In this document: in pieces, positions 3,082 through 35,442 of the stretch | How the letters are laid out: each line of letters opens with the position of its first letter | Numbering within the stretch: the first letter of the stretch is position 1 | NCBI GenBank assembly: GCA_903872185.1 | Contig: CAIQJL010000055.1 | Location: 1 to 36,064 of the forward strand | Source of the DNA: an uncultured Bacteroidota bacterium | GTDB lineage: Bacteria; Bacteroidota; Bacteroidia; Bacteroidales; GWA2-32-17 | DNA length: 36,064 nucleotides | Direction of reading: 5' to 3' | The notes under the pieces: model-generated | What the model was told of the DNA's origin: nothing | What the model saw: the letters and a program-made list of their open reading frames with translations, nothing else | Database searches by the model: none | Made by a program: the position numbers and the translations under genes

Positions 3082-3426
3082 TTAATACATTAATTGTTTT
3101 TTATTTGTTTTTTGCCATCCTGCATCATATTTGCTTTCTGTAAAATAAATTATTAATTCTGCATCGTATTTTGAATCAACAAAAAATATTTTCTTTTTAG
3201 CATCATACTTCGAATCACAAAAATACCATAAGCCATTATTATCGCCAGCATCGTATTGTGAAGTAACTTTGCATACAACTAAATCTGCATCATATTTACT
3301 GTCAGCAACCCATACTTTAACATCAGCATCGTATTTTGAATCGCAACTATAAATTTTTTGTGCATTTACATTTGTAGTTAGTAACATGCTAAATACTATT
3401 CCAATAAGTAATGTTATTTTTTTCAT
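3082..3426 (-). CDS. Secreted six-fold KYDA-repeat protein (probable 7_1-knot 'septknot'/DUF6150 family)
   Basis: A 114-residue protein. Residues 1-22 form a Sec signal peptide ending NVNAQ, so the mature protein of about 92 residues is exported. The mature part contains six copies of a S-K/Q-Y-D-A motif, with KYDA/QYDA at residues 31, 44, 57, 73, 86 and 99. The spacing is 13, 13, 16, 13, 13: two sets of three joined by a 3-residue insertion. Each unit reads as a beta strand plus a tight turn. From memory, this matches the small Bacteroidota family formerly DUF6150, reported to adopt a 7_1 knotted fold; that is recall, not a search result. Biological function is unknown. Single-gene unit with its own terminator, divergent from the next gene. 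Confidence 0.75.
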   Translation of the reverse strand: MKKITLLIGIVFSMLLTTNVNAQKIYSCDSKYDADVKVWVADSKYDADLVVCKVTSQYDAGDNNGLWYFCDSKYDAKKKIFFVDSKYDAELIIYFTESKYDAGWQKTNKKQLMY

Positions 3427-7147: not shown

Positions 7148-9115
<1,968 letters not shown>

Positions 9116-20162: not shown

Positions 20163-22295
20163 ATGGAAAATGAAATAGTTAAATTGATTTCTAAGGAAGT
20201 TAATTGTAATGATTGGCAAATAAATAATGTTGTAAAACTTTTTGAAGGGGGGGCAACAATTCCATTTATTAGTAGATATAGAAAAGAAATGACTGGAAGT
20301 TTAGATGAGGTTCAGATTTTAAATATAAAAGAACTTATTGATAAGTATCAAAGCCTTGAAAAAAGAAAAATAACAATATTAGAAACGATAAAAGATTCTG
20401 GTTTATTAACTCATGAACTTGAAACATTAATTATAAGTTGTTATAATTCCACAGAATTAGAAGATATATATTTGCCATTTAAACCAAAGCGAAAAAGTAG
20501 AGCTGAAATAGCCCGTTTAAAGGGTTTAGAACAATTAGCAGATTTTATATTTTCGCAGAAAAATCAAAATATTCTGCAATTTGCTCAATCATTTATTAAA
20601 GGAGATGTGAAAAATATTGAAGAAGCAATAAATGGTGCAAATGATATTATTGCCGAAAAAGTAAATGAAGATATAAGAGCTAGAAATTTAATAAGAAATC
20701 TTTTTAAATTTGATGCAGTAATTACTTCAAAAGTAATTAAAGCAAAAGAAACAGAAGCTTTAAAATATACCGATTATTTTAGTCTAAGTGAAAAATTAGT
20801 AAAATGTCCTTCTCATAGAATTCTTGCTATTAGGAGAGGAGAGAGTGAAGGTTTTTTAAGAGTTAAAATTGACATTGATAATGAAAGTGCAATTATTAAA
20901 TTATTTAAATTATTTGTTACAGGAAGGGGTGAAGCATCTAAACAAGTTGAAAATGCAATTGAAGATTCATATAAAAGATTAATTTGTCCATCAATTGAAA
21001 ATGAATTCGCAACATTATCCAAAGAAAAAGCAGATAAGGAAGCTATTCGTGTATTTGGTGAAAATCTTAAACAATTATTATTACTACCACCTCTTGGCAA
21101 TAAACGTGTTTTAGCTATAGATCCTGGTTACAGAACAGGCTGCAAAGTTGTTTGTATTAACGAACAAGGAAATATTTTATTTAATGAAACAATTTACCCA
21201 CATCCTCCACAAAAAGAAATTATACAAGCGTCAAAAAAAATTACTTCTATAGTTAATGCATACAAAATAGAATGTGTTGCAATTGGAAATGCAACTGCTG
21301 GTCGAGAGACTGAAAATTTTATTAAAAATGTACGTTTCGATAAGCCTGTAAAAGTTTACATGGTTAGCGAAGCAGGTGCATCTGTTTATAGTGCATCACC
21401 GGTAGCCCGTGAGGAATTACCGCAGTATGATGTTACGGTTAGAGGTGCTGTTTCTATTGGTAGAAGATTGCAGGATCCGCTTGCAGAATTAGTGAAAATT
21501 GACCCAAAATCAATTGGAGTTGGGCAATATCAGCATGATGTTGATCAAATCCTTTTGAAAAATAATCTTGACAATATTGTAGAAGAATGCGTAAATAAAG
21601 TTGGTGTAAATATTAATACTTCGAGTAGATATTTATTGTCTTATGTTTCTGGAATTGGACCACAATTAGCTAAAAATATATCTGAGTATTGCGAAAAAAA
21701 TGGACCTTTTAAATCTAGGGGTGATTTGTTAAAAGTTCCTCGTTTTGGTGAAAAAGCTTTTGAGTTGGCAGCTGGATTTCTCAGAATTCCTGAAGCAGAA
21801 AACCCTCTAGATAATACTTCAGTTCATCCTGAAAGATATAAATTAATTTCAAAAATTTGTAAAGATTTAAATTGTACAATTGAAAATTTAGTTTCTAATA
21901 AAGAGTTATTAGGAAAAATTCAAATTGAAAAATATATCTCAGATGAAGTTGGCTTACCAACTTTAAATGACGTAATCAGCGAATTAGAAAAGCCAGGAAG
22001 AGACATTAGATTGGGGATAAAGATATTTGAGTTTTCTCAGGATGTATATAATATTGATGACCTAAGAACAGGCATGATACTTCCTGGAATTATTACAAAT
22101 GTTACAAATTTTGGTGCTTTTGTGGATATTGGAATAAAACAAAATGGCTTGGTACATGTTTCAAATATTTGCAATGAGTTTATAACAAATCCAGCAGATA
22201 AGGTAACATTAAACCAGCATGTAAAAGTAAAAGTGATTGAAGTTGATAAGGAAAGAGGAAGAATTCAACTTTCGATGAAAGATATTGGACAATAA
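20163..22295 (+). CDS. tex: RNA-binding transcription accessory protein Tex
   Basis: Cytoplasmic nucleic-acid-binding protein implicated in transcription and RNA metabolism. 710 residues, slightly shorter than proteobacterial Tex. Order of domains: Tex N-terminal helical region (1-190; PFISRYRKEMTGSLDE is the hallmark), helical core (190-310), YqgF/RNase-H-like domain (about 320-450; RVLAIDPGYRTGCKV and YMVSEAGASVYSASPVA), helix-hairpin-helix region (about 490-560; VSGIGPQLAKNISEY, FKSRGDLLKVPRFGEKAFE) and S1 RNA-binding domain (about 640-707; GIITNVTNFGAFVDIGIKQNGLVHVSN). Nothing is missing. Monocistronic with a shared strong hairpin downstream. Confidence 0.96.
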   Translation: MENEIVKLISKEVNCNDWQINNVVKLFEGGATIPFISRYRKEMTGSLDEVQILNIKELIDKYQSLEKRKITILETIKDSGLLTHELETLIISCYNSTELEDIYLPFKPKRKSRAEIARLKGLEQLADFIFSQKNQNILQFAQSFIKGDVKNIEEAINGANDIIAEKVNEDIRARNLIRNLFKFDAVITSKVIKAKETEALKYTDYFSLSEKLVKCPSHRILAIRRGESEGFLRVKIDIDNESAIIKLFKLFVTGRGEASKQVENAIEDSYKRLICPSIENEFATLSKEKADKEAIRVFGENLKQLLLLPPLGNKRVLAIDPGYRTGCKVVCINEQGNILFNETIYPHPPQKEIIQASKKITSIVNAYKIECVAIGNATAGRETENFIKNVRFDKPVKVYMVSEAGASVYSASPVAREELPQYDVTVRGAVSIGRRLQDPLAELVKIDPKSIGVGQYQHDVDQILLKNNLDNIVEECVNKVGVNINTSSRYLLSYVSGIGPQLAKNISEYCEKNGPFKSRGDLLKVPRFGEKAFELAAGFLRIPEAENPLDNTSVHPERYKLISKICKDLNCTIENLVSNKELLGKIQIEKYISDEVGLPTLNDVISELEKPGRDIRLGIKIFEFSQDVYNIDDLRTGMILPGIITNVTNFGAFVDIGIKQNGLVHVSNICNEFITNPADKVTLNQHVKVKVIEVDKERGRIQLSMKDIGQ

Positions 22296-22321
22296 AAAAA
22301 GGGCTAAAAAGCCCTTTTTTT
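22294..22321. terminator. Bidirectional terminator between tex and the AP2/H1-tail gene
   Basis: The stem GGGCT / AGCCC with an AAAA loop is flanked by A and T runs on both sides. It serves tex on the plus strand and the convergent gene at 22338-23291 on the minus strand. Confidence 0.9.
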
Positions 22322-22337
22322 ATTCAGAGTGTTAGAA

Positions 22338-23291
22338 TTATTTTTTCTTTTTAGCTACAACTTTTTTAGCTACTACTTTTGCTTTTGGAGCAACTTTCTT
22401 AGCAACTACTTTTTTAGCTACAGCTTTTTTAGCAACTACTTTTTTAGCTACAGCTTTCTTAGCAACTACTTTTTTAGCAACAGCTTTTTTAGCAACTACT
22501 TTTTTAGCTACAGCTTTCTTAGCAACTACTTTTTTAGCTACAGCTTTCTTAGCAACTACTTTTTTAGCTACAGCTTTCTTAGCAACTACTTTTTTAGCTA
22601 CAGCTTTCTTAGCTACAACTTTCTTAGCAACTACTTTTTTAGCTACAGCTTTCTTAGCTACAACTTTTTTAGCAACTACTTTTTTAGCTACAGCTTTTTT
22701 AGCTACAACTTTTTTAGCAACTACTTTTGTAGCTACTTTTGCGGCAACATTAGGTTTTTTAGATATCACGTTTAAAGTATTAGTTTTACCAAATAATTCA
22801 GTTGATTTTTTATTATAAGCTGCTGCAGCTTGTTCTGCAGTGTCAAATGAACCCAAAGGAATTCCTTTGCGATCTACATAAATATACGAGTAAAATTTAC
22901 GTCCTTGTTTTACAACACCACGGTAACCTGTACTGTTTTTAATTTTACGTGTGTTACGAACAAGATTTGAGAATGTGCTCCACTCTAAATTTTCTAAACG
23001 GCAGTCAACAGCGTTAGCATTAATAAAACGTACAAACCAACGAACTTTTCCTGCAGGTTTTTTAACAAATTTTTCAGAAATAAATTTGTGAAGATAAATG
23101 GTTTCGTTTCTGTATGAACCATCTTTTTGTCTCCAGTTTTTCTGGAAGAAAACGTAACCACTTGAGTGTTCTCTTAAGTTTTCCCAAAATTTAATTGTTT
23201 TGAGATACTTGTCTTGATTTAGTTTTTCATAAACATGTTCATCAAGAATTGCTTTTTTGTCAGAATTTTTCAAACTTACTTTTACTGGCAT
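22338..23291 (-). CDS. HNH-AP2 homing-endonuclease-like protein, catalytic His lost, with histone-H1-like tail
   Basis: A 317-residue protein from ATG 23291. An in-frame ATG at 23345 lies within the promoter and is rejected. Residues 1-115 follow the plan of phage HNH endonucleases (a VKVSL...AILDE start, [17 protein letters not shown] with His68, then RLENLEWST). However, the HINGN motif reads RFINAN (Phe89 for the catalytic His) and LDNR reads VDCR, so cleavage is probably lost. Residues 121-170 are an AP2 DNA-binding domain (GYRGV..., [27 protein letters not shown]). Residues 184-317 are a Lys/Val/Ala tail of repeated [10 protein letters not shown], like histone H1 or bacterial H1-like proteins. 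Probable nucleoid-binding protein; function is inferred. Confidence 0.85.
22341..22742. repeat. 30-bp tandem repeat encoding the [10 protein letters not shown] tail
   Basis: About thirteen units of roughly 30 bp, on the plus strand reading as TTTTTAGCTACAGCTTTCTT plus AGCAACTACT, with units nearly identical at the DNA level. All changes keep the reading frame. Such near-identical units are prone to copy-number change by slippage or recombination, which would alter tail length in steps of ten residues. Confidence 0.9.
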
Positions 23292-23342: not shown

Positions 23343-23373
23343 CAAATGTACACATAATTATAATAAAACAAAA
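23343..23373 (-). promoter_or_regulatory. Bacteroidota-type promoter of the AP2/H1-tail gene
   Basis: On the minus strand TTTTG (23369-23373) is followed after 18 nt by TACATTTG (23343-23350), matching TTTG-N19-TAnnTTTG. The expected transcript start, at about 23337, lies inside the longer possible reading frame and supports the ATG at 23291. Confidence 0.75.
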
Positions 23374-23660: not shown

Positions 23661-23733
<73 letters not shown>

Positions 23734-23790
23734 CAAAATTCAAAGAAATATAATAGATGTTAATTTATTTTTATATAAAAGGATTTTTTC

Positions 23791-23811: not shown

Positions 23812-23884
23812 GCGGGAGTAGCTCAGTTGGTAGAGCATCAGCTTCCCAAGCTGAGGGTCGCGGGTCCGAGTCCCGTTTCCCGCT
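23812..23884 (+). tRNA. tRNA-Gly(CCC)
   Basis: A 73-nt cloverleaf. Acceptor GCGGGAG pairs with TTCCCGC. Anticodon stem TCAGC/GCTGA with loop TTCCCAA gives anticodon CCC, reading GGG. The T-loop reads TCCGAGT, with C in place of the near-universal T at position 55 (normally pseudouridine). All stems pair. The CCA end is not encoded. A corA gene follows 80 nt downstream. Confidence 0.93.
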
Positions 23885-23950
23885 CAAATGGTAGTTTAAA
23901 TGTTTTAATAGAAGGTCTGTTATTGCATTTATTTCTGGATGCTAACCTTA

Positions 23951-33684: not shown

Positions 33685-35442
33685 ATGAAATCTTACATCT
33701 TTTTAATTTTATTTGGGTTATTATCAACTCTTTGTTTTTCTCAGGATACTGTTGTTACATATTATAAAAACAACAAGAAGGCCAGCGAAGGATTAATGCT
33801 TAAAGGTGCAGAATATGGCAGATGGAAATATTATAGTCAGAATGGAAAACTTATACAGGAAACCGATTTTGTTAATGGTTTTGCTAACGGAAAAATAATT
33901 TATTATTATCCAAATGGAAATAAGCAAAATGAAGGTGAATGGAAATATAGTATGCAGAGAGGTGAGTATAGCGAGTGGTTTGAAAATGGACAGTTAAAAG
34001 CTAAAGGATTTTATAAAATAGGAATTAAAGATAGTCTTTGGACATATTGGTACGAGGCGGGGCAAAAGAAAAAGGAAATACAATATTTTTATTCTGGAGA
34101 TTATAAAATTTTAAATTGTTGGTCGTTTGATGGAAAATTAATGGTTGAAAAAGGAAATGGAATTTTTGAAGATAAGTATGCAAATGGGAAAACAAAGGAA
34201 AAAGGAGAATTCAAAAATGGTAAAGAAACAGGAGAATGGAATTATTGGTTTGATAATGGTCAAAAGCAGTCGTCAGGCATTTATTTAAATGGAATAAGGA
34301 TAGGAAAATGGCTTTCATGGTTTAATGATGGAGTTTTACGATCTGAATTAAATTATGAAAATGGTAAAAATATAACATATTACCATAATACTCAAAAGGA
34401 AATGGAAGGTACTTTAAAGGATAGTTTAAAAGAAGGAACCTGGTTTTTTTATTTTGAGAATGGTCAGAAAAAAATGGAAGGAGAATTTAAAACTGATTTG
34501 CGAACTGGGCTTCATACAAGATGGTTTGAAAATGGGAATAAAGAATCTGAAGTAACATTTGAACAAAGTAAAAAGAATGGTCCGGCAAAATGGTTTTTAG
34601 AAAATGGAAAACTTGATATGGAAGGTTCATTTATTAATGATGTGCAAAATGGAAAATGGACATATTGGAGAACTGATGGCGTAAAAGGTAATGAAGGAAA
34701 TTATACTAATGGAAAAATGGATGGGCTTTGGACATATTGGTATGGAAATGGAAAAATATGGAAAGAAATTACTTTTAAGGATGGGTTAAAAAGTGGTAAG
34801 GTAACATTTTATTATGAAAATGGTAACAAAGAACACGAAGGAAATATGGACAATGGTTTAGAAACTGGTTTCTGGACTATGTGGTACGAAAATGGAAATA
34901 AAAAAATGGAAGGTACATTTGTGAATGGTATTATGGATGGGCTTTGGAAAGGTTATCACGAGAACTCAAAACAGAAATATGAACTGACATATAAAGACAG
35001 CTTGCAAAATGGCAAAATGACTTATTGGTTCCCTAATGGTAATATGTTATCTGAAGAAACAATTATAAATAAAATTCATCAGGGATCATATAAAACCTGG
35101 TTTTCTAATGGCAAACCAAATATTTCAGGAAATTTTAAAGACGATAATAAAATTGGGAAGTGGTTATATTCTAACGAACTGGGACAAATGTTACGACAAG
35201 AAGTATATAAAGAAGGTAAACCAGATGGTAAATGGCTAACATATTACCCACAAGGACCACTTGAAAGTGAAACAAATTATAAAAAAGGTTTTAAAGAAGG
35301 AACCGCTAAATATTGTGAACCAAGTGGAAAAGTAATTTTTGAATCTATTTTTCACAATAATAAACTTGTTAAAACAATTTCAGGAAAAGCGCCAGAAGAA
35401 AAAGTTAATCCTAAACCAAGGAATGATTATGGTAGAGAGTAA
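33685..35442 (+). CDS. Secreted MORN/YwqK-type repeat protein
   Basis: A 585-residue exported protein with a signal peptide ending at about residue 20 (LCFSQ). From about residue 25 to 560 it is built entirely of roughly 23-residue units with the pattern G-x-W-x-x-W/Y-Y-x-N-G-x-x-K-x-E-G-x-F-x-N-G, about twenty-two copies; examples are KNGKETGEWNYWFDNGQKQS and NGLETGFWTMWYENGNKKME. This is the MORN variant of the 'YwqK antitoxin' family. The whole protein is a long beta-hairpin ladder, likely a surface or periplasmic binding scaffold. An actual antitoxin role is not supported here: no toxin gene is adjacent. Repeats also occur in the 3533-5734 protein. Confidence 0.88.
   Translation: MKSYIFLILFGLLSTLCFSQDTVVTYYKNNKKASEGLMLKGAEYGRWKYYSQNGKLIQETDFVNGFANGKIIYYYPNGNKQNEGEWKYSMQRGEYSEWFENGQLKAKGFYKIGIKDSLWTYWYEAGQKKKEIQYFYSGDYKILNCWSFDGKLMVEKGNGIFEDKYANGKTKEKGEFKNGKETGEWNYWFDNGQKQSSGIYLNGIRIGKWLSWFNDGVLRSELNYENGKNITYYHNTQKEMEGTLKDSLKEGTWFFYFENGQKKMEGEFKTDLRTGLHTRWFENGNKESEVTFEQSKKNGPAKWFLENGKLDMEGSFINDVQNGKWTYWRTDGVKGNEGNYTNGKMDGLWTYWYGNGKIWKEITFKDGLKSGKVTFYYENGNKEHEGNMDNGLETGFWTMWYENGNKKMEGTFVNGIMDGLWKGYHENSKQKYELTYKDSLQNGKMTYWFPNGNMLSEETIINKIHQGSYKTWFSNGKPNISGNFKDDNKIGKWLYSNELGQMLRQEVYKEGKPDGKWLTYYPQGPLESETNYKKGFKEGTAKYCEPSGKVIFESIFHNNKLVKTISGKAPEEKVNPKPRNDYGRE

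Follow-up and report, generated by a model that had tools for sequence, protein, structure and literature searches.

The joining of an HNH nuclease to an AP2 DNA-binding domain is an established architecture of homing endonucleases in phages, cyanobacteria and protists, and the AP2 domain of plants is regarded as descended from homing endonucleases of bacteria and phages (both in the available part of PMC10448857). The same part of that source describes CapR of the PLE phage satellites, where the DNA-binding domain of a homing endonuclease is in regulatory use. D74, H75 and N96 of I-HmuI are conserved catalytic residues, according to the accessible portion of PMC12724721. A lysine-rich repeat that varies in length is described for the Hc2 protein of Chlamydia in the accessible text of PMC2848022.

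The window analysed here, a stretch of 36,064 nucleotides from an uncultured Bacteroidota bacterium, encodes on its minus strand a protein of 317 amino acids (22338..23291). The coding sequence runs uninterrupted from ATG to TAA, and the position of the start methionine is matched in nearly all homologues. A sequence-only reading had proposed an inactivated and domesticated HNH-AP2 endonuclease fused to a histone H1-like tail. The conserved body, residues 1 to 179 (22755..23291, minus strand), had 14 matches at 41–99% identity and one more, partial, at 31%; AlphaFold2, run with an alignment of 36 rows, modelled it with a mean pLDDT of 91.2.

The N-terminal part of this body resembles the nuclease I-HmuI. 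Residues 61 to 117 (22941..23111, minus strand) aligned with residues 49 to 103 of I-HmuI; the profile of the whole body found this enzyme at E 8.5e-5, and that of the N-terminal part alone at 0.05. In the body model, strands 85–89 and 102–106 and helix 107–112 reproduce the beta-beta-alpha layout. When residues 1 to 120 were modelled alone (mean pLDDT 89.3), I-HmuI (1u3e) was the top Foldseek match (E 7e-3, prob 1.00) and also the top row in VIA, with a Z of 7.9 (94 residues, 3.9 Å), a value under 8 that may reflect a common arrangement; I-PpoI came next (4.8) and made up all the other rows. The whole-body model gave a Z of 6.6 with I-HmuI (94 residues, 3.9 Å), and Foldseek found nothing in the PDB at E 0.001 or better with either the whole body or residues 1 to 120. 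With a Z below 8 and no PDB match as good as E 0.001, the assignment of a His-Me (beta-beta-alpha) fold relies on sequence and structure jointly, and together they support such a fold.

Viral predicted structures gave 140 matches at E 0.001 or better, many of them named HNH endonucleases, with Bacillus phage Stahl on top (E 5e-12, 176 columns), and PHROG families of HNH endonucleases were matched with a best value of 4.8e-19. The body also matched Pfam HNH_3, below the cut-off, and reached no NCBIfam model at its cut-off. The body matched I-HmuI both in structure and by sequence profile; the structural likeness to HNH nucleases on which that reading depended was found. Elsewhere in the same genome, a locus (G000:C355:3934-4080, L223) exceeded the HNH_3 cut-off with 30.3 bits and was absent from the matches to the body.

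Residues 119 to 175 (22767..22937, minus strand) are predicted by model, profile and structure match to form an AP2 domain of three strands and a helix, the sheet and helix of the model lying within residues 126 to 167. The structure matched plant TEM1 (Z 9.4, 57 residues, 1.6 Å) and AtERF1 (Z 7.6), and the family profile matched WRI1 with an E of 7e-13. Pfam AP2 did not match the window row and matched nine of the 36 rows of alignment A3. In the HMM search proposed beforehand, HNH_3 responded below its cut-off, and Pfam AP2 did not respond to the window protein alone. Although the latter falls below Pfam AP2, the matches to TEM1 and WRI1 agree with the claim of an intact domain, and the modelling supports an AP2 fold.

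The catalytic site is altered. In the alignment with I-HmuI, D74 corresponds to R88 and H75 to F89 (codons at 23025..23030), N96 to L110 (22962..22964), and N87 is retained as N101 (22989..22991; all on the minus strand). The motifs RFINAN and VDCR, with Phe89 at the place of the histidine, read exactly as had been claimed, and by its sequence the window protein lacks the catalytic Asp-His pair and the third Asn. We then tallied these places over the 135 family hits left once further loci of the same genes had been removed by locus number; they represent 117 distinct bodies. None of these (0/117) carried the catalytic D, H or N at places 88, 89 and 110, respectively, and N101 was kept in all (117/117). 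Place 89 was occupied by F (65), A (27), I (14), L (7), C (3) or N (1), and place 110 mostly by I, A, V or L. The sequences aligned from outside the family, mostly from viral contigs, carried D in 53/63 cases, H in 56/63 and N in 55/69 (84 hits, 80 from viral contigs and four cellular, reduced to 74 distinct; gaps excluded from the denominators). Among the seven aligned outsiders without the histidine, L243 is a register slip, and its sequence reads DH. Since the site is absent from all 117 family bodies and mostly kept outside the family, its loss is old and most simply preceded the diversification of the family; a purely local loss of catalysis is ruled out. The survey for the same loss of the histidine, suggested with the first reading, thus found it in every family body, and an active HIN motif, which would have had to be the norm for that reading to fail, was absent from them. 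Loss of the histidine also occurred elsewhere, since the non-family HNH-AP2 proteins L113 and L163 (viral contigs) and L212 (G518) lack it. The polar residues H42, Q50, T64, Y66, N101 and R112 were identical in 80 of 80 sequences.

The family forms one branch. It was separated in a careful tree of 84 rows (69 family rows versus 15 others, support 100/100) and in a quick tree of 97 rows (71 versus 26, support 97); the 13 rows left out of the former were 11 long-branch non-family rows (L113, L163 and L212, which lack the histidine, belong to these), L013, a long row of the family, and the second copy of G798. L016, L213 and L210 (G090, G584 and G671) form a divergent second branch; these proteins have about 304 amino acids and a non-basic C-terminal extension, and G090 and G584 hold a normal copy as well. 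The body is under strong purifying selection: dN/dS ran from 0 to 0.17 in the 15 pairs, chosen by hand, for which dS was defined, and one further pair was saturated. Its net charge had a median of +14 over 160 rows, repeat loci included.

The distribution through Bacteroidota is patchy, since matches were obtained in 15 of 99 genomes of relatives (own genome included, G026 only weakly), in 20 of 295 genomes of the order (18 strongly), in 80 of 150 genomes of the distant family f96, and, at E 1e-15, in 4 of 395 genomes drawn evenly over the phylum (own included). The gene is present in all five genomes of the genus and in nine of the ten of the taxonomic family f1, own included, usually as one copy per genome. 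Family f96 is probably Saprospiraceae, because L092, from a MAG of that family, clusters in the tree with the f96 locus L214. Among the best 80 of 134 loci were those of 37 Pontibacter records (one locus apiece), of Flammeovirga (F. pacifica having two), Cesiribacter, Nafulsella, Adhaeribacter, Flexithrix and Salinivirgaceae, together with two Chlorobiota MAGs and one Sphingomonadales MAG that may be mislabelled bins.

In the window, the gene converges on a Tex-like S1-domain gene (20163..22295, plus strand; named from its own sequence), a conserved neighbour common to L018, L020, L021 and L023, and the two stop codons are 42 nucleotides apart. Upstream of the 317-aa gene lie tRNA-Thr(cgt) (23661-23734) and tRNA-Gly(ccc) (23812-23885), both on the plus strand. 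The neighbouring genes read as housekeeping, in agreement with the context first described. The gene, Tex and a small cluster are kept together across the window's genus (g1); in G006 the gene stands beside part of this cluster and in G007 near it, and the f1 genomes G005 and G009 have a different neighbourhood, common to both and partly to G007. Across distant clades, no neighbour was conserved family-wide: the widest clusters covered 6 of 42 labels, three of them being the window's own cluster and one short-chain-dehydrogenase-like, and a dnaX-like gene covered 5 of 42. At L026, an HU-like gene (by reading) divergently adjoins a family member (7232-7552 and 7931-8512). The window also encodes a small, secreted-looking protein built from repeated SKYDA motifs (3082-3426, minus strand) and a long protein with repeated W-x-Y/W-x-x-NG-like units, MORN-like by eye (33685-35442, plus strand).

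The 73 matches among phage records all stayed below 60% identity (28–38% among the 12 matches listed), viral contigs matched at 28–51% identity (best 80 of 86), and the plasmid collection gave none; no close family member was found in the viral, phage and plasmid collections. The neighbours and the lack of a close phage or plasmid match rule out that the window gene is a prophage gene, and carriage by phages, introns or other mobile elements was not found for it. The restriction to prophages that could have undone the sequence-only reading was likewise not observed, the neighbourhood being chromosomal. Anti-phage defence was rejected, with no PADLOC match. Single loci may differ in prophage status, because L014/L030 (G044) lie about 2 kb from a gene reading like a phage tail sheath. 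The single clade, the family-wide loss, the synteny in near relatives, the purifying selection and the lack of a close phage or plasmid member all argue that an HNH-AP2 nuclease was domesticated long ago. With a family-wide loss (0/117) in one clade, the inactivation and domestication go beyond what had originally been proposed.

The gene had also been credited with a well-formed promoter and a terminator. A scan for sigma-70 promoters found 4 against 4.0 expected, which is chance level, and a promoter of that type was rejected. TAnnTTTG is the promoter consensus of Bacteroidota, and a matching -7 element, TACATTTG, is located 59 nucleotides before the ATG (23343..23350, minus strand). Between -35 and -59, TAnnTTTG was present in all 9 f1 loci (9/9, own included), where shuffles expect 0.31. 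It is not a family-wide feature, because it occurred within -110 to -20 in 20 of 80 loci from genome contigs. Between the 317-aa gene and the Tex-like gene, a hairpin followed by a T run (GGGCT-TTTT-AGCCC, 22296..22322) was read directly from the sequence; it is probably a terminator common to both convergent genes, though it was not among the calls of the terminator scanner. Similar hairpins follow the stop in L002, L004 and L005.

The tail occupies residues 184 to 317 (22341..22742, minus strand), and its 134 amino acids comprise 54 K, 41 V, 37 A, 1 T and 1 P. It is encoded by a tandem array of 12.9 copies of a 30-bp repeat (22348..22737, minus strand), and tail length changes in steps of such repeats. 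The whole window protein scored 69.7 bits against Pfam HC2, with a cut-off of 40. Among the six tailed proteins scanned, two were over this cut-off (the window protein and L225), L226 and L005 were below it, and L227 and L228 gave no report. Long K/A-rich tails were found in the window's genus in G000 (own genome), G003, G004 and G001, with 25 residues in G002, and in the distant f96 in G767, G768, G795 and G757, where the repeat words differ (APKK, TAKK). The composition of the eight long tails is 36–47% K+R and 46–63% A/V/P/T, and the length after the body is 138 residues in the window, 131 in L002, whose body is 99% identical, 57 in L005 and 25 in L004. In L228 and L003 the contig ends inside the tail. 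RGRK endings, which we take to be AT-hook-like, occur in 4 of 117 members (L227, L230, L236 and L244, all of f96), and the motif is absent from the bodies.

K/A-rich tails of 50 or more residues follow 8 of the 117 distinct bodies, a count that gives no rate because the f96 loci were chosen mainly for long open frames; fewer than 30 residues follow 98 of the 117. Judged by frame length, 4 of the 80 matching f96 genomes carry a long tail, and G700 is cut short inside AP2. On the tree the tail needs four changes. Grouping all eight tailed rows into one clade was rejected (p-AU 4e-8), and with it a single origin uniting the tails of f96 and of the window's genus; one clade of the four f96 rows was not rejected (p-AU 0.62). 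Because the eight rows do not form one clade, the tail was gained at least twice, unless many losses are assumed. In the window's genus it is a young, recent addition. The H1-like tail fusion is present with the 134 residues first described, and the survey for the same fusion returned long tails in this genus and in f96, but most members are short or tail-less. An H1-like region is not the main, common part of the family: a tail that most members lack or have only in short form cannot be the core function, and, being recent, it did not create the domesticated protein.

The explanation that we hold to be rather probable is that the protein is a cleavage-dead HNH-AP2 chromosomal DNA-binding protein, nucleoid-like or broadly regulatory, whose tail raises its affinity. 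In every member seen, an HNH-AP2 endonuclease has lost its three catalytic residues, most simply before the family diversified, and strong purifying selection has kept the folded body with its AP2 domain. DNA may be gripped, without being cut, by the AP2 domain together with the former HNH groove. Repeat expansion produced a long lysine/alanine tail in the window's genus and, separately, in f96; such a tail would strengthen non-specific binding and might, like the bacterial H1-like proteins, bridge DNA or neutralise it. We infer the DNA binding, the absence of cleavage, the compaction, the regulation and the affinity of the tail. We consider a role in the nucleoid or in broad regulation more likely than a narrow one at a single site; that similar tails were gained separately in a distant family speaks for the binding of nucleic acids and does not separate nucleoid packing from regulation. 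The sparse occurrence over the phylum (4/395, and 18/295 in the order) is unlike that of a universal nucleoid protein and counts against such a role, as do the HC2 scores, over the cut-off in two of the six tailed proteins scanned, and the four HU-family genes that the genome carries; since it has these and another HNH_3 match (C355), the protein would be an addition to the usual nucleoid set and not a replacement.

No part of the protein matches solved structures more clearly than the AP2 domain, which would also suit a sequence-specific regulator, like the plant AP2/ERF factors or CapR, in which it reads a short site and the tail aids the search on DNA. DNA-binding domains of endonucleases have turned into regulators before (available part of PMC10448857), the gene is mostly single-copy, and its promoter element is conserved within f1. 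However, long low-complexity basic tails in two lineages suit a broad binder better, and we regard a regulator of this kind as unlikely. Lysine-rich tails can bind any polyanion, and the gene next door looks like Tex, a protein of an RNA-binding type; the tail might thus serve RNA, ribosomes or polyphosphate instead of DNA. AlgP, which is H1-like, affects the spacing of polyphosphate granules according to the accessible part of PMC9239181. The tail-bearing body nevertheless has a DNA-binding fold and four members end in AT-hook-like motifs, which makes a target other than DNA quite improbable.

A functionless tail, a passive expansion of repeats on an otherwise working protein, would account for the youth of the 30-bp repeat and for lengths that vary from 138 to 25 residues. 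Its composition has nevertheless stayed steady during repeat turnover, and the same composition recurs with other words in a distant lineage, so that we give little credence to a functionless tail. The polar residues identical in 80 of 80 sequences could form a rebuilt active site on the beta-beta-alpha layout that the model retains, and DNA would then still be cut; against this, places 89 and 110 are varied and mostly non-polar, with no conserved replacement, and continued cleavage is extremely unlikely. A dead nuclease body that binds chromosomal DNA is the reading that we retain. A whole class of bacterial chromatin protein derived from a homing endonuclease, with the dead body in more than 100 genomes and H1-like tails grown independently, is a tentative extension of it whose chances fall somewhat short of even.

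A bacterial chromosomal family that keeps a whole dead nuclease and has independently added H1-like tails appears to be new; no description of it was found in a literature search whose scope left out most subscription journals. It offers a testable case of the passage from selfish nuclease to bacterial chromosomal DNA-binding protein, with named carrier isolates in Pontibacter, Flammeovirga, Cesiribacter and Adhaeribacter, and the repeated growth of tails on one scaffold would allow their effect to be measured inside one family. With the HNH-AP2 homing endonucleases, the family shares the order of the two domains, a related body and the matches to PHROG and viral HNH proteins, but it is devoid of all three catalytic residues, chromosomal, and syntenic among close relatives. 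The first 120 residues resemble I-HmuI in structure and residues 61 to 114 do so in sequence; unlike in I-HmuI, D74, H75 and N96 are replaced and the C-terminal part of the body is AP2, a domain that to our knowledge I-HmuI lacks. Like Hc2, the window protein has lysine-rich repeats of variable number and exceeds the HC2 cut-off. In contrast to Hc2 and AlgP, for which we know of no HNH-AP2 body, its tail is an optional addition to a folded body of 179 residues. The putative regulatory use of a homing-endonuclease DNA-binding domain is common to CapR, as far as the available part of PMC10448857 describes it, but CapR is a satellite gene of T5orf172 (GIY-YIG) origin, whereas the present family is HNH-AP2 and chromosomal. 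As in the plant AP2/ERF factors, the AP2 domain would have been kept without nuclease activity, although here in bacteria and still attached to a conserved, dead nuclease domain. If a class of chromatin protein of homing-endonuclease origin is indeed what the family represents, it is a bacterial parallel to the rise of the plant AP2/ERF factors from the same type of selfish gene.
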